NCBI RefSeq assembly: GCF_002150765.1
Contig: NZ_MUYM01000012.1
Span: forward strand, 37,094-101,093
Length of the DNA: 64,000 nt
Direction of reading: 5' to 3'
From: Lentzea kentuckyensis
GTDB taxonomy: Bacteria; Actinomycetota; Actinomycetes; Mycobacteriales; Pseudonocardiaceae
Positions 46,493 to 54,007 of the stretch are shown here, in pieces. Position 1 is the first letter of the stretch, and each line of letters begins with the position of its first letter. The position numbers and the translations under genes are program-made. The notes below the pieces were generated by a model. That model did no database searches. It worked only from the letters and a program-made list of their open reading frames with translations, and was not told the DNA's origin.

Positions 46493-46954
46493 TTGAGTTT
46501 CGTTCGGCGTATTTTCCTGGCATTGGTTCCCGCCGCGTTGCTCATCGTCGCCGGAATCATGGCTCCGAGCGCACAGGCGGAGGCTCCGGCCGTGCAGGCC
46601 GCGGCCGTGGGCGCGGCCTTCGACGCTCAGACGGGGCAGGCGCTCGCCCAGTGGGAGTGCAGCATCGGCCACGTCTGCTTCTGGAACGACTTCCAGGGCA
46701 AGGGCAAGCGCTGCATGTGGGAGAACCAGGACGACGACTGGAACAGCGCCCCCGTGGTGTGCTCGTGGGCTTCGAGCAACGAGGTCAAGTCCGTCTACAA
46801 CCGGGGTACATCCTCGCAGTTCAAGGGCGTCGTCTTCTACCGCAACACCGGTTTCCACGACCGGATCGGTTGCACCAAACAGGGTCAGAAGGGTGACCTG
46901 ACCGGCACCTACAAGGTGAAGTCGCACCAGTGGACGACGGGCCGCTGCGGCTGA
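46493..46954 (+). CDS. Secreted I36-type (SMPI-like) peptidase inhibitor 1
   Basis: A 153-residue protein with a signal peptide (MSFVRRIFLALVPAALLIVAGIMAPSAQA, cleaved after AQA). The mature part has a beta/gamma-crystallin-like fold signature, WECSIGHVCFWNDFQGKGKRCMW, and SVYNRGTSSQFKGVVFYRNTGFHDRIGCTKQGQKGDL, the pattern of peptidase inhibitor family I36 (Streptomyces metalloprotease inhibitor). The target protease is unknown. TTG 46493 is the start, with GGGAGGAAT five bases upstream. A twin gene follows, and each has its own terminator. Confidence 0.9.
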   Translation: MSFVRRIFLALVPAALLIVAGIMAPSAQAEAPAVQAAAVGAAFDAQTGQALAQWECSIGHVCFWNDFQGKGKRCMWENQDDDWNSAPVVCSWASSNEVKSVYNRGTSSQFKGVVFYRNTGFHDRIGCTKQGQKGDLTGTYKVKSHQWTTGRCG

Positions 46955-46971: not shown

Positions 46972-47010
46972 AACCGGGCGTGCGGCAACTGACCGCACGC
47001 CCGGTTTTCC
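46972..47010 (+). terminator. Terminator between the two inhibitor genes
   Basis: A perfect 14-bp stem, AACCGGGCGTGCGG (46972-46985) paired with CCGCACGCCCGGTT (46993-47006), has a seven-base loop and is followed by TTCCTTTTC. It lies 17 bp after the first inhibitor's stop. Confidence 0.85.
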
Positions 47011-47036
47011 TTTTCGAACGAGCGAGGAGGAAATCC

Positions 47037-47507
47037 TTGACTTTTGTTCGGCGAATTTCTCCGACGTTGACGTCGCTCGCGCTGCTCGGGCTCGTCGGGG
47101 TTGCGGCCCCGAGCGCGCAGGCACAGGGGCAACAGGGGCAGCAGGCACAGGGGCAGGCCGCCGTCGGTGCCGCGTACGACACCGAGACCGGCCAGGCGCT
47201 CGCCGCCTGGGACTGCAACACCGGCAACGTCTGCTTCTGGAGCGGTTTCGGCGGCACCGGCGGGCGCTGCACGTGGGACGTGGCCGACGCCGACTGGGCG
47301 TCCGGCGCCATCAAGTGCTCGCCGGCGACAGCCAAGGAGGTCAGGTCCCTCTACAACCGCGGCACCGCCTCGCCCAGGGGCGTCGTCTTCTACCGCGACA
47401 CCGGGTTCAACGACCGGATCGGTTGCGCCGAACAAGAGCGGAAGGTCGACCTGCCCGGCACCCACCAGGTGCGCTCGCACCAGTGGACCAGCGGCCCCTG
47501 CGGTTGA
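47037..47507 (+). CDS. Secreted I36-type (SMPI-like) peptidase inhibitor 2
   Basis: A 156-residue tandem paralogue of the preceding inhibitor. The signal peptide is FVRRISPTLTSLALLGLVGVAAPSAQA, then a Gln/Gly-rich linker (QGQQGQQAQGQ) absent from its twin. The fold motif is WDCNTGNVCFWSGFGGTGGRCTW, with VRSLYNRGTASPRGVVFYRDTGFNDRIGCAEQERKVDLPGT. TTG 47037 is the start; the leader GAGGAGGAAATCCTTGA closely resembles that of the twin, so the duplication included the translation signal. Confidence 0.9.
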   Translation: MTFVRRISPTLTSLALLGLVGVAAPSAQAQGQQGQQAQGQAAVGAAYDTETGQALAAWDCNTGNVCFWSGFGGTGGRCTWDVADADWASGAIKCSPATAKEVRSLYNRGTASPRGVVFYRDTGFNDRIGCAEQERKVDLPGTHQVRSHQWTSGPCG

Positions 47508-47631: not shown

Positions 47632-48609
47632 GTGTTGCGCATCCATTTTTCCACTGGTGATCTGGAGCGTACGCAGATAGCAGAAAGGGTCGATCCGCTC
47701 TGGGAGATGGTGTTCAGCCGGAACCGGCTGACCGAAAGCGACAGCGGGATGCTGTTGCAACCGTGGCTGCACGACATCCGGCGCAACGGCAACGTGCAGG
47801 TGATCCGTTCCGGCGTGCGGCTGTTGTCCGTGCTCGCGCCGTTGGGTCCGTACTTTCCGGACTTCCTCACACCGCCGGAGGGTGCGGACGGTCTACCGGC
47901 CGCTCTCGCCGCGATCCGGTCGACACCGCGCGCCCGGCTGCGGGACGAGTTCCAGTTGCTCGCCGACGTCACCCCGACTCCCACGTGGACACGTCCGCTG
48001 GCGGAGGGGTGCGACGGCGCGCTGGCCGAGCTCACCGAGGCGCTCAAGCGGTATCACGGCGCGGTGATCGAGCCGTACCGCGACCTGATCGACGAGGCGG
48101 TCGCGACGGACCGGTTGAATCGGGCGGCGTCGGGGACAGAAGGACTGCTGCGGGGCATGTGGCCGTTGATGAACTGGCGGCCGCCCGTTCTGGAGGTTCA
48201 GTACGCCTACGACCGGGACCTGTACCTGAACGGGCGCGGGTTGCGGCTGGTGCCGTCGTACTTCTGCCGGCGAACACCCGTCGCGCTCGCTGATCCGGGG
48301 CTGCCGCCGACCGTCGTCTATCCGGTGCACCACGACTGGACCTGGCAGCGGCAGCTCGCAAGTGGACGGCGCGAGCTCGGAGCACTCGCGGCGCTGCTGG
48401 GGAACACCCGGTCCGCGGTGCTGGCCGCGGTCGGTGCCGGCGCCACGACCACCGAGCTGGCGGAACGGCTGGGCGCCTCGGCGTCCGCGGTCAGCCGGCA
48501 CACGACCGTGCTGAGGGAGGCAGGGCTGCTGACGACGGAGAGACAGGGGATTTCGGTGCTGCACCAACGAACGCTGCTCGGATCAGCTTTGCTGGGCAGC
48601 AACAACTGA
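47632..48609 (+). CDS. ArsR-like winged-helix regulator with long N-terminal domain
   Basis: A 325-residue protein. The N-terminal 240 residues (HFSTGDLERTQIAERVDPLWEMVFSRNRL ...) resemble the actinobacterial DUF5937-like domain that precedes an HTH. The C-terminal 70 residues hold a winged helix, AVLAAVGAGATTTELAERLGASASAVSRHTTVLREAGLLTTERQGISVLHQRT. It is most like ArsR-type regulators fused to a large ligand domain, without visible metal Cys residues. It is transcribed away from nothing obvious, so its target is unclear. Its 3' end overlaps lnt by 27 bp. Confidence 0.88.
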   Translation: MLRIHFSTGDLERTQIAERVDPLWEMVFSRNRLTESDSGMLLQPWLHDIRRNGNVQVIRSGVRLLSVLAPLGPYFPDFLTPPEGADGLPAALAAIRSTPRARLRDEFQLLADVTPTPTWTRPLAEGCDGALAELTEALKRYHGAVIEPYRDLIDEAVATDRLNRAASGTEGLLRGMWPLMNWRPPVLEVQYAYDRDLYLNGRGLRLVPSYFCRRTPVALADPGLPPTVVYPVHHDWTWQRQLASGRRELGALAALLGNTRSAVLAAVGAGATTTELAERLGASASAVSRHTTVLREAGLLTTERQGISVLHQRTLLGSALLGSNN

Positions 48610-50067
48610 GGCACGGCGGCGCATCCACAGCCCGGCCAGGCACGCGGCGAAAGCCGCTCCCGTGAGCAGGACGTGGATCGCGCCGCCGAACCTCGTCGCG
48701 AACGTCAGGTCCGTCCGCAGCGGCACGGAGTCCACCAGCAGGTCGTCGGTGAACATCCCGGTCGATCGCACCACGCTGCCGTCCGGGCGGACCACCGCGC
48801 TCACGCCGCTGATCGCCGCGACCACGACCGCACGGCCGTGTTCGATGGCGCGCAGGCGGGCCATCCCGAGCTGTTGGTAGGTCATCTCGCCACGGCCGTA
48901 CCAGGCGTTGTTGGTCGGCACGACGAGCACTTGTGCACCCAGCGCCGTGCTCTCACGCAGGACGTAGTCGTACGCGACCTCATAACAAATGCCGAGACCC
49001 ACGCGTGTGCCCGCGATGTTCAGCACGCCGGGTTCGGTGCCGGCGTCGAGATCGGGCTGGTCGGCGAACGGCGTCACGAGCCGGGCCAGCGGGCGCAGCG
49101 GGATGTGCTCGGCGAACGGCACGAGCTCCTGCTTCGCGTACGACTCCCCCGCGCCGCGTCCGGGTTCCCAGGCGATGACCGAGTTCTGGCCGTTGCGCAG
49201 CGCGCTGACCAGCACAGGCACGCCGAGGTCGTCGACGGCGCGGTCGAGCACCGGGTCGCGGTCGCCGGTCCTGGTCGCGCTCTCCGGCCACACCACGAGG
49301 TCCGGCTTCGGGATCGACCCGCCCTGCACCAGCTTCGTCAGTTCCTCGGTCTTGCGCAGGTGGTTGGCGCGCAACGTCTTGGACTCGGTCAACAGGCCGA
49401 GGCCGATGTCCGGCGCGTTGCCCTGCACGACCGCCACGGTCCGTGTGCCGTTCTGCGCGTCAACGGCGACAAGCGGGCCAACGGCGAGAGCGGCGGCGAA
49501 CGGCACCAGTGCCCAGCCTCGACGCCACTCGCGCACGCGGGGCAGCCACGCCGCGAGTCCGAACCCGGTCACCACCACCGCGAACGTCACGAGCGGTGCG
49601 CCGCCGATCACCGCGAGGTGCGCGAACGGGCCGTCGACCTGACCGAACGCCACACGGCCCCACGGGAAGCCGTTGAACGGGATCAGCCCGCGCGCGGTCT
49701 CCTGCAACACGAACAGCAACGCCGCCCACACCGGCGGTACCGGCAGCCGCGAGACCAACGGGAAGAGCGCGCACACCCCGCAGATGAACAGCGCCATCAA
49801 CGCCGAGAGCACGAGCCACGGCGCGGGACCGAACTCGTTGCCCAGGAAGTGCTGGATCCACCACAGGTGCGGCAGGAAGAACGCGAGCCCGAACACGAAC
49901 CCGAGGCCGGCCGAGCGACGCGCGCCCGCGCCGTTCAGCGTCAGCCACAGCACGACGAACGCGGGCACCGCGAGCCACCAGAACGTGCGCGGCGGGAAGC
50001 TCAGGGCGAGCGCGGCGCCGGCCAGCGCGGCCGCGCCGTAGCGGGCGAGATCAGTTCTGGACGGCAA
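48583..50067 (-). CDS. lnt: Apolipoprotein N-acyltransferase
   Basis: A 494-residue enzyme with six to seven N-terminal membrane helices, then a nitrilase-like domain (about 210-460). The catalytic triad is Glu in LVVWPESATR, Lys in ESYAKQELVPFAEHIPLRP and Cys in GLGICYEVAYDYV. It adds a third acyl chain to the N-terminal Cys of lipoproteins at the outer face of the membrane. In mycobacteria the enzyme is fused or linked to Ppm synthase; here it overlaps mptB, which also uses polyprenol-phosphate-mannose. TTG 50067 is inferred; no better start exists that avoids a longer overlap. Confidence 0.9.
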   Translation of the reverse strand: MPSRTDLARYGAAALAGAALALSFPPRTFWWLAVPAFVVLWLTLNGAGARRSAGLGFVFGLAFFLPHLWWIQHFLGNEFGPAPWLVLSALMALFICGVCALFPLVSRLPVPPVWAALLFVLQETARGLIPFNGFPWGRVAFGQVDGPFAHLAVIGGAPLVTFAVVVTGFGLAAWLPRVREWRRGWALVPFAAALAVGPLVAVDAQNGTRTVAVVQGNAPDIGLGLLTESKTLRANHLRKTEELTKLVQGGSIPKPDLVVWPESATRTGDRDPVLDRAVDDLGVPVLVSALRNGQNSVIAWEPGRGAGESYAKQELVPFAEHIPLRPLARLVTPFADQPDLDAGTEPGVLNIAGTRVGLGICYEVAYDYVLRESTALGAQVLVVPTNNAWYGRGEMTYQQLGMARLRAIEHGRAVVVAAISGVSAVVRPDGSVVRSTGMFTDDLLVDSVPLRTDLTFATRFGGAIHVLLTGAAFAACLAGLWMRRRASVVAAQQS

Positions 50068-51499
50068 CGGGCACCCGGCGCAGGACGAAGTACGCGCAAC
50101 CCACCAGGGCGACCCCGAGTGCGTAGGCGAGGACGAGCTCGGTCACGCGACCGGCGAAGTTGCCCGCGAGCGGCGGCACCAGCAGGGCGAACACCCCGGT
50201 CAGAACGGCGACCCCGGTCCGCCACCTCCCCGCCGGCAGGCAGGCGGCCAGCGGCAGCACCGCCCACAGCAGGTACCACGGCTGGATCACCGGCCCCAGC
50301 ACCACGATCAGGCTCATCATCATTCCCAGCGCAGTCACCTCGGAGATCCCGCCGCGCAGGTGGAGGTTCAACACCACCACGATGCCGCACAGGATCAGCA
50401 CGAGCCCCGCGATCCGTGCCGAGGAAATCATCGCCTGCCCGGTTTCCTGGCCGAACACCGCACCCGCCAGAAAGCCCGGCCAGTTGGTCGGCGCCATCCA
50501 GCTGTTGACCTTCGAGGGCGTCCCCAACGCCTGTACCCAGCCGAAACCGGCCCCGCCGGCCAGTGAAGTCACGACCGACACCCCGACCGCGGTCGCCACC
50601 ATGGCGAGGCCCGCGGCCGCGAACCGGACCAGGCCTCCGCCCAGCCGCCTGGCCAGCGCGGTGCCCACCACCGCGAGCGCCACCAGCGCGGGCAGCTTCA
50701 CCTGCGCACCAAGGCCGATGAGCACGACACCGGCCGTGAACTGCCACCACCTGAGGTCGTCGAGTGAGTGCAACGCCACGACGGTGCCAGACAGCATGAG
50801 GCCGAGCATCAGTGCGTCGTTGTGGACACCGCCGATGAGATGCCACAGGACCAACGGGTTCAGCACGCCCAGCCACAACGCCGCGCGCTCGGACGTGCCC
50901 GTCCGCTGCGCGAGCCTGGGCACCGCCCACACCACCAGCAGCAGCCCCACCACCGCGACCAGCCGGTACAGCACGATGCCCGCCACCGGGTTCCCGCCGG
51001 TGACCTCGCTGATCGCCCGTTCGACGGTGCTGAACAGCGGTCCGTACGGCGACGGCGTCTCCCTCCAGTAGACGCCGACCCGCGCCACCGCCTCCGCGCT
51101 CGCGCCGACGGCCGGGCTCACGACGTTCGGGTCGAGCCCGCGTGCCGCCACCTCGCCCTGGGCCAGGTAGCTGAAGACGTCCATGCTGAACAACGGCGGC
51201 GCGAGGACCAACGGCCCGCACCACAACGCCAGCGTGCGCCGCAACCAGGACGCGTCCGGCCTGGCCCGGCCGAGCATCGCCCAGGCCAGCACGACCAGCC
51301 CGGCGCCCGCGATGGCGGCTCCCAGCGCGACCGGCACCGCACTCGTGGCCCACGCTCCCGCCGTGAGGAGCACCGCGCCACCGAAACCCGTCCAACGCAG
51401 GACATCAGGGGTTCCGGTGGTGACGGGCGCGGACGTGCGTTGAAGAACGGTCGACGGCATCTGCACGGGTGAGACAGTGCTTTCCGGACGGATCGTCAC
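50051..51499 (-). CDS. mptB: Polyprenol-phosphate-mannose-dependent alpha-1,6-mannosyltransferase (MptB type)
   Basis: A 482-residue GT-C membrane glycosyltransferase with about 12 helices. The first extracellular loop carries the acidic catalytic region (FSMDVFSYLAQGEVAARGLDPNVVSP), and WRETPSPYGPLFSTVERAIS follows, both characteristic of MptA/MptB and related AG-type mannosyltransferases. LNPLVLWHLIGGVHNDALMLGLML and VQALGTPSKVNSWMAPTNW add further support. It would extend the mannan core of lipomannan or a related lipoglycan using polyprenol-phosphate-mannose. The overlap with lnt suggests joint handling of cell-surface lipids. Confidence 0.92.
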   Translation of the reverse strand: MTIRPESTVSPVQMPSTVLQRTSAPVTTGTPDVLRWTGFGGAVLLTAGAWATSAVPVALGAAIAGAGLVVLAWAMLGRARPDASWLRRTLALWCGPLVLAPPLFSMDVFSYLAQGEVAARGLDPNVVSPAVGASAEAVARVGVYWRETPSPYGPLFSTVERAISEVTGGNPVAGIVLYRLVAVVGLLLVVWAVPRLAQRTGTSERAALWLGVLNPLVLWHLIGGVHNDALMLGLMLSGTVVALHSLDDLRWWQFTAGVVLIGLGAQVKLPALVALAVVGTALARRLGGGLVRFAAAGLAMVATAVGVSVVTSLAGGAGFGWVQALGTPSKVNSWMAPTNWPGFLAGAVFGQETGQAMISSARIAGLVLILCGIVVVLNLHLRGGISEVTALGMMMSLIVVLGPVIQPWYLLWAVLPLAACLPAGRWRTGVAVLTGVFALLVPPLAGNFAGRVTELVLAYALGVALVGCAYFVLRRVPVAVQN

Positions 51500-51563: not shown

Positions 51564-53171
51564 TCAACGCCCGGCGAAGTCGTGCGTCATCCACACGGTT
51601 CCCTTGGCGTCGCGGATCACCACGATGCCGATGCGGGTCGAGGAGTCGCTGAGGATGTTCCTGCGGTGACCGTCGTTCGGCGGCTTCTCGTCGATCATGC
51701 CCTGGGTCAGGCCGAGCGCCATCTTGGAGATCGCCTCGACGGTGTCCTTCACCGGACCGCCCATGCCGACGTTCTCCGCGACCGAGCTCCACTTCACGCC
51801 CGCCGCCGTGCTGCGCTCACCGAGACCGCTCTCGCCGGGACACTGGTGCGACAACCCACAGCCGTTGCTCATCATCGCCTTGGTGTGCCGTTCGGCCGCC
51901 ACGACCAACGCCGGGTCCACGGTCAGCGGCGGCAGACCCGACTTGGCCCTGGTCTCGTTGATCAGCGCGAGGACGCGCTCCTCCGGTGTGGCGACACGAA
52001 CCGGTTCGGGCGTCTGAGTGGTGGTGGTCGTGGTCGTCGTAGTGGTTGTGGTGGTCGTGGACGATGGCGTGCTTGAGGCGGTCTCCGTGACCGACGACGA
52101 CGTGGTGATCGCTGCCGTGGTGTTGTTGGGAATCGCCACAGCGGCGGGCGGGTCGGACGGGAAGAGCACCATCGTTCCGGCCACGCCGACGAGCGCGGCC
52201 ACCGCCACCGCGCCCGCCACCGCGAGAACGGGCTTGCCGGTCAGCCCGGTGACCTTGCCGATCAGGCCGGCGGGCTCGGCCGCGTGGGAGCCTCTGGCCG
52301 CGGCCTCACCGAGGTGGTAGGCGTGCGCGACCTGTTCCAGCGCGGGGTCGCTGAGGTTCTCGAGCAGTTGCGGCAGGTAGCTCGCCGGCACCGTGAGCAG
52401 CGTGGCGCCGGTCAGGATCCGTTCGACCGGCATCGCGTCGTCGATTCCGCGGCCGCATCGCCCGCACTCGTCGACATGACGCAGGAGCCGCTTGCGCCAC
52501 AACGGGTTCGGCTCGCCGTTCCAGCCCTGTGCGGCCTGGGCCAGCCCCGCGCAGCGCGGTTCGGCCGACAGCGCGCGGACCAGGTGCCGGACCGTCTCCA
52601 GGCGGCCCTTCAACCTGCTCACCCGCACGGTGACCGCGTGGGCGTTGAGGTCGAGCGCGTCGGTCACCTCGGCGCGGGTGAGCTGTCCGACGCGTTCCAG
52701 CGTCCACAACGCCAGCAGCTCGCGGTCGGCCGGGTCGAGCCAGCGCGCCGCCTCGTCGACCTCACGCCGCTGCTGAGCCATGTGCAGGCGCGATAACGCG
52801 ACCTCGACGAACTCGGCGTCCGGGTCGGCCCGGTCGTACTCCTCCAACGGCGCGGGCGCGGCGTCACGGCGGCGGTAGTGCTCGCGGACCTGGTTGATCG
52901 TCACGGCGACCAGCCACGACCGGAACCGCTCGGGCTCGCGCAGCGCGTCGATGCCGCGGATCACGCGGAACATCGTCTCCTGCACCACGTCGTCGACGTC
53001 GGCATCGGCGTTCAGCGCCCGACCGGCGACGTTGTAGACCAGAGGCAGGCTGGCGGTGACGACGGCGTCGAGCGCCTCACGATCACCGGCCCGCGCGGCC
53101 TGCACCTGCTCCGCGTCCACCTGCCCCAGCCACTCCCGACCCGTCACTTCCGCACCCTTCGCCGACGACAT
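51564..53171 (-). CDS. Membrane-tethered ECF sigma factor fused to extracellular CAP domain
   Basis: One 535-residue chain combines four parts. Residues about 15-200 are an ECF sigma factor: region 2 (DADVDDVVQETMFRVIRGIDALREPERFRSWLVAVTINQVREHYRRR) and region 4 (ELLALWTLERVGQLTRAEVTDALDLNAHAVTVRVSRLKGRL). A zinc-finger-like motif follows at H232-x3-C236-x2-C239. One membrane helix lies at about 315-336, then a Thr-rich linker with 14 consecutive Thr (372-385). Residues about 394-535 form a CAP/SCP domain (AAERHTKAMM, SVAENVGMGG, NDGHRRNIL) expected outside the cell. The start is ATG 53171. The sigma part is likely held at the membrane until freed, as in ECF groups with fused regulatory extensions. 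Confidence 0.93.
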   Translation of the reverse strand: MSSAKGAEVTGREWLGQVDAEQVQAARAGDREALDAVVTASLPLVYNVAGRALNADADVDDVVQETMFRVIRGIDALREPERFRSWLVAVTINQVREHYRRRDAAPAPLEEYDRADPDAEFVEVALSRLHMAQQRREVDEAARWLDPADRELLALWTLERVGQLTRAEVTDALDLNAHAVTVRVSRLKGRLETVRHLVRALSAEPRCAGLAQAAQGWNGEPNPLWRKRLLRHVDECGRCGRGIDDAMPVERILTGATLLTVPASYLPQLLENLSDPALEQVAHAYHLGEAAARGSHAAEPAGLIGKVTGLTGKPVLAVAGAVAVAALVGVAGTMVLFPSDPPAAVAIPNNTTAAITTSSSVTETASSTPSSTTTTTTTTTTTTTTQTPEPVRVATPEERVLALINETRAKSGLPPLTVDPALVVAAERHTKAMMSNGCGLSHQCPGESGLGERSTAAGVKWSSVAENVGMGGPVKDTVEAISKMALGLTQGMIDEKPPNDGHRRNILSDSSTRIGIVVIRDAKGTVWMTHDFAGR

Positions 53172-53239
53172 CCGTACGTCATGGGAGACCGGGCAGTCTC
53201 ACCTCAGGTCACAGAAACCGGGCGAATTGGTGACCCAGG

Positions 53240-54007
53240 TCACACCGAGACCACTGCCACGCCGGTGCGGCCTCCATCGACGTCGAGCACGGTGCCGTGC
53301 ACGAACGCGGACTCGTCCGAGGCCAGGTAGACGGCCGCGGCGGCGATCGCGTCGGGATGCCCGGACCGTCCGGCGGGGGTGCCGTGCATCATCACCTCGC
53401 CGGGGTGGTCGGTCGTGGTGTCCCAGTCCGGCGAGACGACGACACCGGGCGAGATGGCGTTGACCCGGACACCCTGTGGCCCGAACTCCGCCGCCCACGC
53501 GCGCGTGAGCGTCTCCATCGCGCCCTTGGTGGAGCTGTACAGCGAACTGCTCGCAACGCCGAGCCGGGCGATCCACGAGCCGAGGTTGATGATCACCCCG
53601 CCGGCCTCGATCATCCCGGGGACGAGGGCCTGCGTCAGGAAGAACGGCGCCTTCACGTTGACGCCGTAGACGCGGTCGAAGGTCTCCTCGTCGGTCGTCG
53701 GGGTGGTCGACGGCGGGTAGATGCCGGCGTTGTTGACGAGGACGTCGACTCGGCCTCCGAGGATCTCGGTGGCGGCCGAGGCGAGCGCGCGGCTGGCGGC
53801 GGCGGTGCCGTCGAGGTCGGCGCGGACGAAGTCGGCCCGTCCGCCCCTGTCGCGAATGTGCTCGACCACGGCCGCTCCCCTGGCGTCGTCCCGCCCGGAG
53901 ACGACGACGTGCGCGCCCTCCGCGGCGAGGGCGACCGCGATCGAACGGCCGATGTTGCTGGTGGAACCGGTGACGAGGGCCGTTTTGGCCTGCAGACGAT
54001 GTGCCAT
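53240..54007 (-). CDS. SDR family NAD(P)-dependent oxidoreductase
   Basis: A 255-residue classical short-chain dehydrogenase: VTGSTSNIGRSIAVALAAEG (cofactor), NNAGIYPPSTTPTTDEETFD, the catalytic Ser in INLGSWIARLGVASSSLYSSTKGAMETL with Tyr-x3-Lys, and VLDVDGGRTGVAVVSV at the end. The Asp/Arg pattern SGRDDARGA suggests NADP(H). ATG 54007 follows FEGMAHRL and has only GAGGGC in front. It lies 46 bp downstream of the TetR gene on the same strand, behind a TetR-type operator at 54033-54048, so it is probably under that regulator. Confidence 0.93.
   Translation of the reverse strand: MAHRLQAKTALVTGSTSNIGRSIAVALAAEGAHVVVSGRDDARGAAVVEHIRDRGGRADFVRADLDGTAAASRALASAATEILGGRVDVLVNNAGIYPPSTTPTTDEETFDRVYGVNVKAPFFLTQALVPGMIEAGGVIINLGSWIARLGVASSSLYSSTKGAMETLTRAWAAEFGPQGVRVNAISPGVVVSPDWDTTTDHPGEVMMHGTPAGRSGHPDAIAAAAVYLASDESAFVHGTVLDVDGGRTGVAVVSV

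Follow-up and report, generated by a model that had tools for sequence, protein, structure and literature searches.

A single gene joins sigma, membrane, and CAP domains

The window, by which we mean the whole 64,000-nucleotide (nt) stretch of the Lentzea kentuckyensis genome that was analyzed (contig NZ_MUYM01000012.1, positions 37,094 to 101,093), carries on its reverse strand one uninterrupted open reading frame (ORF), 51564-53171, that begins as an ECF sigma factor and ends as a CAP/SCP domain. The gene, its parts, the predicted control elements, and the two genes that follow it are listed here; residue numbers of domains refer to the 535-amino-acid (aa) ORF.

51564..53147, (-), sigma-CAP fusion gene in its probable true frame, GTG start, 527 aa
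52863..53060, (-), sigma region 2, ORF residues 38-103, from a Pfam match and the fold
52596..52754, (-), sigma region 4, about residues 140-192, from an NCBIfam match and the fold
52455..52553, (-), zinc-binding anti-sigma-like motif, Cys207, His232, Cys236, and Cys239, from the alignment
52164..52220, (-), predicted membrane helix, residues 318-336, from hydropathy
51984..52151, (-), Thr-rich, presumably extracellular stalk, residues 341-396, from composition
51567..51983, (-), CAP/SCP ectodomain, residues 397-535, from a Pfam match and the predicted fold
53184..53213, (-), predicted own promoter, TGTGACC-N16-GGTCTCC, from aligned upstream regions
53229..53244, (-), CRP/GlxR-like palindrome, TGTGACCTGGGTCACC, upstream of the predicted promoter
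50051..51499, (-), MptB, polyprenol-phosphomannose-dependent alpha-1,6-mannosyltransferase, a conserved neighbor in Lentzea
48583..50067, (-), Lnt, apolipoprotein N-acyltransferase, a conserved neighbor in Lentzea

Translation from the ATG at 53171 gives 535 aa. When the upstream regions of Lentzea orthologues were aligned, the GTG at 53147 was present in 19 of 19, these rows having been picked by the peptide V-T-G/V-R-E-W that this GTG begins (loci L093 and L031 gave no row), and the ATG at 53171 was found in the window sequence alone. Translation of the fusion therefore probably starts at GTG 53147, which would leave the first 8 residues of the ORF untranslated.

The joining of the two halves is not an accident of this assembly. 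A frameshift, or the chance joining of two genes, was ruled out because the reading frame runs through the entire fusion in 22 of the 24 Lentzea genomes in a survey of 40 related genomes and because both halves are under purifying selection; the other two Lentzea genomes (G003 and G011) have a paralogue only. In four Lentzea pairs the ratio dN/dS was 0.10 to 0.17 for the sigma half and 0.07 to 0.29 for the CAP half, and two more distant relatives, L098 and L097, also gave values indicating purifying selection (sigma, 0.19 and 0.33; CAP, 0.37 and 0.32, respectively). The fastest-evolving part of the chain lies around the membrane helix (0.21 to 0.68 in the four pairs), and the Thr stalk gave 0.11 to 0.24. 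Among the matches listed, the closest named relative of the fusion was that of Lentzea alba, with 92% identity.

Domains and predicted structure

An earlier note on this DNA, made from its letters and ORFs, had described a single chain with sigma regions 2 and 4, an anti-sigma-type His-x3-Cys-x2-Cys motif, one membrane helix, a poly-Thr linker, and a CAP/SCP domain. Each of these parts was recovered by independent means. Pfam Sigma70_r2 matched residues 38-103 with 57.3 bits (cutoff, 24), and the NCBIfam sigma70-ECF model TIGR02937 spanned residues 32-192 with 72.2 bits (cutoff, 42.9). The Pfam models of region 4 gave no match to the window protein at an E value of 1, so the region 4 assignment relies on the NCBIfam match and the fold. 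Modeled sigma region 2 resembled the structures of ECF sigma factors, with best Z scores of about 13 to 14.

Behind region 4, a Cys-x24-His-x3-Cys-x2-Cys module (Cys207, His232, Cys236, and Cys239) was invariant in 81 of 81 aligned members of the family described below. We take an upstream Cys or His followed by H-x3-C-x2-C to be the zinc-binding anti-sigma (ZAS) motif. The Pfam zf-HC2 model (PF13490) matched none of the 81 members at an E value of 0.001; in one member, L122, it reached 13.3 bits, below its cutoff of 22.2. A profile of the zinc segment, searched against PDB sequences, returned nothing significant, its best match (E value, 0.85) being 3hug, which we take to be the anti-sigma factor RslA. 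The segment did align with that of ECF52-like proteins (hhalign probability, 75.7), and the spacing of its Cys-His-Cys-Cys residues is nearly the same as in the ECF52 zinc segment. A basic stretch, WRKRxxRH, was also invariant among the aligned members.

Hydropathy predicted a single membrane segment, at residues 318-336. The stalk that follows contains 23 Thr and 8 Ser in 58 residues, and the CAP model (PF00188) matched residues 401-527 with 53.4 bits (cutoff, 21.1). Among 56 aligned CAP-bearing proteins, His429 was kept in 55, His442 in 54, Glu466 in 56, and His502 in 54; we take these residues to be the CAP signature His/Glu cluster and to have its role. The alignment of CAP-bearers covered 55 of 66 CAP-bearing loci, and two other alignments covered 67 of 80 and 45 of 80 loci. 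An AlphaFold model of the 527-residue form had a mean pLDDT of 78.3 and a pTM of 0.38. Its sigma-zinc and CAP parts were confident, and the stretch between them was low, with pLDDT below 50 over residues 266-360. The modeled CAP part superimposed on 4ifa with a Z score of 19.1 and a root mean square deviation of 1.7 over 123 residues. The cytosolic half modeled alone had a pTM of 0.54, and the packing of the sigma and zinc parts is not fixed by the model.

Distribution and phylogeny of the family

The earlier note had proposed a survey of actinomycetes for the same fusion, and in such a survey the fusion proved not to be confined to a single genome. We scanned the GTDB species genomes (84,980) with two sigma region 2 peptides as seeds. 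At least 531 of the 593 listed stretches encode a relative; the best 80 were kept, a set biased toward CAP because the query itself bears CAP. Among the 81 proteins (the best 80 plus the window protein), Sigma70_r2 was found in 81, CAP in 67, and a PF11790 hydrolase domain in 6. The CAP-bearers came from Lentzea, Amycolatopsis, Kutzneria, Streptomyces, Streptacidiphilus, Actinospica, Yinghuangia, Kitasatospora, and other genera. Three CAP ends were close to the Pfam cutoff of 21.1 bits: those of L122 and L140 fell under it (19.9 and 17.2 bits), and that of L058 was just over it (21.4 bits).

The ectodomain varies. Fifteen Lentzea paralogues have an ectodomain other than CAP; PF11790 was found in 14 of these, and the remaining one, L070, had no ectodomain that was recognized. 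An AbfB ectodomain occurs in a genome of the same order (L077). Of 60 genomes drawn evenly from the class, nine had a match at an E value of 1e-15, including the fusion's own genome, besides which only G128 had a match covering nearly the whole query. In one genome each of 38 other genera of the family, the CAP end had no match at an E value of 1e-15 and the zinc-membrane part had three matches. The fusion is thus spread over several actinobacterial families, but its distribution is patchy.

Several individual loci deserve mention. L070 (G013:C244) is a Lentzea paralogue that keeps the sigma-zinc half and has no ectodomain recognized by Pfam. Three additional sigma-CAP paralogues, including a tandem pair, occur in one Lentzea genome (G016:C1; L057 and L058); the CAP end of L058 is degraded. 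In G035, two CAP proteins without a sigma half (L059 and L060) are 54% and 52% identical to the window ectodomain. L098, from a record named Nocardia sp. NRRL S-836, is a Lentzea-like fusion with 67% identity.

A tree of 90 rows was built from the sigma-zinc part after 16 near-duplicate or shortened rows of the 80 were omitted. A split supported at 100/99 separated its 74 rows with CAP, hydrolase, AbfB, or undefined ectodomains from plain ECF factors and from the ECF52-like proteins that bear NPCBM; it is to be read with caution because of the long branches near it. Ectodomains were labeled on the tree by our own CAP profile or by a short motif. The ten rows labeled hydrolase, of which nine are verified since L070 lacks PF11790, formed one group (88/67) nested among the CAP rows. 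The CAP label required 5 changes on the tree versus 28.0 with shuffled labels. From this pattern, and with the same caution over long branches, the hydrolase seems to have replaced an older CAP ectodomain. The genome of the window also encodes L016 (C112:132849-133940), a membrane-anchored sigma factor that has a zf-HC2 domain and a tail that is long and Pro-rich; it grouped with the ECF52-like proteins.

A promoter-like motif upstream of the fusion genes

The motif TGTGAC-N17-GGTCTC was common to the 19 aligned upstream regions of Lentzea orthologues, and its exact form precedes the fusion in all 22 Lentzea genomes that have the fusion. In the genome of the window, the strict motif occurred only at the gene's own site. 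A looser pattern, TGTKAY-N16-18-NTCTCC, preceded all 12 close Lentzea orthologues and 49 of 68 other members, which are related sequences and not independent events; the mean for sequences shuffled by a first-order Markov model was 0.025 of 68. The matching members divided into 39 of the 54 with CAP and 10 of the 14 without a recognized CAP, and 19 of the 68 lacked the motif. The looser pattern was drawn after 30 of the 68 regions had been viewed (24 of these match); among the 38 regions unseen at that point, 25 match. Included in the 68 are four divergent Lentzea-group copies (L098, L100, L102, and L127), three of which match, and without them the count is 46 of 64. In control stretches taken downstream, 3 of 67 matched (L107, L108, and L145); these three are read below as target promoters, and the control is not independent.

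Because the motif follows the sigma family across orders regardless of the ectodomain, autoregulation is its best explanation. Farther upstream, each of the 19 aligned Lentzea regions contained the core GTGAC-N5-TCAC of the palindrome at 53229-53244. This palindrome is CRP-like and suggests added control by a cAMP-type regulator.

The motif before genes for exported proteins

In 10 genomes, the exact form TGTTATC-N14-16-GTCTCC gave nine sites, and the reversed pattern, used as a control, gave one. Fusion genes of the family follow five of the nine. Three others precede genes whose products are exported: a membrane-anchored CAP protein, an alginate-lyase-like protein, and a secreted repeat protein that matched PATR only weakly. 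The last has no convincing gene behind it. Across 80 loci, the looser motif gave eight sites away from the fusion's own upstream region, of which five were read as targets and three (L107:2537, L120, and L138) were not. These three and the site at L245 were set aside because no convincing target gene follows them.

At the exported-protein genes (L243, L145, L240, L116, L148, and L108), the motif lies 33 to 51 nt before the start. In Streptomyces griseocarneus, a stand-alone membrane-anchored CAP protein (L243:518-1462, reverse strand) is encoded behind the fusion-gene motif. In L145, the motif precedes a gene beside the fusion for an alginate-lyase-like protein with an AbfB domain; this protein is 56% identical over 409 residues to a homologue that lies elsewhere in another genus (L240, in S. 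bicolor). The strongest single indication of a real regulon comes from these lyase homologues, whose genes are preceded by the motif at unlinked positions in two genera. In two Yinghuangia species (L116 and L148), the motif precedes a gene for a thioredoxin-like lipoprotein. It also precedes a gene for a papain-like protease in L108 and lies 127 nt before the start of such a gene in L107. We looked for it before the protease genes of L109, L111, and L112 and did not find it, which leaves two closely related Streptomyces as the basis of the protease link.

Within Lentzea, TGTGAC-N16-18-GGTCTC occurred at 62 sites in 24 genomes, of which 22 were the fusion's own. With the reversed pattern as control there were 45 sites, more than the remaining 40, and no wider regulon is visible in Lentzea. 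In the window's own genome there were three further one-mismatch sites versus two for the control. The genes behind Lentzea sites L168 to L196, judged by length and GC-codon bias, include no consistent target, and some of these sites are repeats within coding sequence. One site, L181, precedes another sigma-like gene.

Gene neighborhood

The nearest genes are those for MptB and Lnt on one side and for an SDR and a TetR protein on the other. None of them looks like an anti-sigma factor, in agreement with the earlier note. In 13 of 16 Lentzea regions, the fusion is followed by mptB and lnt in the same orientation; these are the 13 close orthologues and not the three divergent ones, and the SDR gene on the opposite side is kept in 7 of the 13. 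Among the 80 loci, which overlap in species with the 16-region set, mptB and lnt adjoin the fusion in 12 of 12 close Lentzea orthologues and in 0 of 68 others. Outside Lentzea, no common neighborhood was shared by more than five loci (L113 was omitted, its own gene being uncalled).

By gene order, mptB and lnt may be coexpressed with the fusion in Lentzea; mptB has its own conserved leader, of about 65 bases in the window. A mannosyl-phosphate synthase and Lnt are encoded in one operon in mycobacteria and putatively in corynebacteria (PMC3460810). A link of the fusion to envelope mannolipid and lipoprotein processing through MptB and Lnt is suggestive only, and O-mannosylation of the Thr stalk via MptB is speculation. 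A search by term of the glycoproteome paper PMC6593405 returned neither SCO4117, discussed below, nor "CAP domain."

Two small secreted-type proteins are encoded nearby on the forward strand (46493-46954 and 46980-47507). The second matches peptidase inhibitor family I36, and the first resembles the second.

Overall, the earlier note was right about the architecture, the zinc motif, the helix, and the likeness to ECF groups taken up below, but it did not mention the MptB-Lnt neighborhood, the probable start at GTG, or the promoter-like motif.

Relation to known ECF sigma factors

The literature on ECF sigma factors is cited here from extracts. In groups ECF48, ECF52, and ECF53, zinc and membrane parts are fused behind the sigma domain, and these proteins are expected to be activated by proteolysis (PMC8999054); some ECF52 and ECF53 proteins have predicted hydrolase and carbohydrate-binding domains (PMC10766802). 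The ECF52 protein SCO4117 of Streptomyces coelicolor likewise has a sigma domain, zinc segment, helix, low-complexity stalk, and ectodomain in one chain; its cleavage has been proposed, and a truncated form was reported to be autoregulated (PMC5826349). In contrast to the Lentzea fusion, its ectodomain is a carbohydrate-binding NPCBM domain (smart00776) instead of CAP, its zinc finger belongs to pfam13490, a model without a match in the Lentzea fusion, and its reported motif is CSGYN-17-SRHA (PMC5826349), whereas that of the fusion family is TGTKAY-N16-18-NTCTCC. Membership in ECF52 was ruled out, since CAP replaces NPCBM and the sigma-zinc part falls outside the eight NPCBM-bearing proteins on the tree (100/99, with long branches). 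These eight ECF52-like rows were found through the NPCBM domain, following the description of SCO4117, which is not itself among the rows.

ECF53 is a closer fit. Proteins of this group are actinobacterial and have a zinc and membrane part fused C-terminally (PMC8999054, PMC10766802). The fusion has the features given in the ECF53 description, namely, a fused zinc segment, one or two membrane helices, and an actinobacterial host. Hydrolase domains are reported in some ECF52 and ECF53 proteins, and PF11790 is the second most common recognized ectodomain of the fusion clade. The clade fits ECF53 best, and identity with ECF53, compared by description only, is likely; the comparison with C-terminally fused groups of the ECF53 type drawn in the earlier note holds. 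In extracts of the same descriptions, a CAP ectodomain is not mentioned for ECF53 (PMC8999054, PMC10766802).

In IutY (ECF243) of Pseudomonas putida, a sigma factor is also fused to a membrane-bound anti-sigma region, and the activating cleavage has been characterized experimentally (PMC8999054). IutY differs in serving iron-siderophore surface signaling, and neither a CAP domain nor a zinc module is described for it in those extracts (PMC8999054). The CAP end, for its part, shares with the CAP/SCP superfamily (4ifa, Pry1, and GAPR-1) both the fold (Z scores, 12.9 to 19.1) and the signature His/Glu residues, but here it forms the outer end of a transcription factor. Our literature search, which covered reviews of ECF factors, found no CAP sensor on an ECF sigma factor, though one may already be noted in the papers that classify the ECF groups. 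As far as we have searched, the fusion is a C-terminally fused ECF factor of the known ECF52/ECF53-like sort in which the CAP ectodomain is the new element.

A proposed mechanism

With a probability of roughly 60%, we favor the reading that the fusion is a one-component, membrane-tethered ECF sigma factor that inhibits itself, amplifies its own expression, and is released by proteolysis upon a signal at its ectodomain. The cytosolic zinc segment behind region 4 would act as a built-in anti-sigma domain, and the single helix would anchor the chain, with the Thr-rich stalk holding the CAP domain outside. There, CAP would sense the state or a component of the cell envelope or the surroundings. 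A signal would lead to cutting of the chain near the membrane, and the freed cytosolic part would allow the sigma half to bind RNA polymerase. It would then read TGTGAC-N17-GGTCTC promoters, its own first, creating positive feedback, and in relatives it would also drive genes for exported proteins. That release is needed for sigma activity, as the earlier note had held, is reasonable by analogy with related systems; the same note's suggestion of a sterol or lipid as the CAP ligand is unsupported.

Two other accounts of the same protein are each improbable, though worth weighing. CAP might be the effector, with the sigma half reporting its loss or shedding and switching on its own gene to replenish the surface protein. 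Such an arrangement would suit the facts that the sole strongly conserved motif site is the fusion gene's own, that the CAP signature residues are kept, and that S. griseocarneus has a separate anchored CAP protein with the same motif. Yet self-replacement seems too narrow a description of the output, given apparent targets such as a protease, a thioredoxin-like lipoprotein, and lyase-like proteins, and the CAP ends of some members (L122, L140, and L058) are divergent. We give an equally small chance to activation by a conformational change that the membrane helix transmits, the sigma factor remaining tethered and uncut. The extended ECF factors ECF41 and ECF238 are described, in extracts, as working by conformational change (PMC8999054). 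IutY, however, the one membrane-anchored case shown experimentally in that review, is cut (PMC8999054), and the stretch between the zinc and CAP parts, being long, of low confidence, and the fastest evolving, suits a tether better than a signal-transmitting rod.

It is quite unlikely that the zinc-like segment is not inhibitory but contacts RNA polymerase or DNA, with activity set by transcription only, for example, through the CRP-like box: the invariance of WRKRxxRH and the conserved palindrome in Lentzea agree with this, but the Cys-His-Cys-Cys residues are spaced nearly as in the ECF52 zinc segment, and purely transcriptional control would leave a membrane anchor without an obvious purpose.

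Returning to the self-inhibited, proteolytically released factor, we tentatively suggest, as a possibility rather less probable than the mechanism itself, that it represents a widespread actinobacterial class of one-component sigma factors. A conserved sigma-zinc-membrane chassis would carry exchangeable ectodomains (CAP, glycosyl hydrolase, or AbfB) such as are found in exported proteins. Besides activating its own gene, it would control a small set of exported proteins, which can have related domains. To our knowledge, little is understood of what CAP domains do in bacteria. If this class exists as proposed, CAP would be a bacterial signaling domain, tied here to a transcriptional output that could be read by a reporter. 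The shared promoter-like motif would make both the regulon and the ligand directly testable in nonpathogenic Streptomyces or Lentzea, and the approach would be transferable to the hydrolase-bearing sisters.
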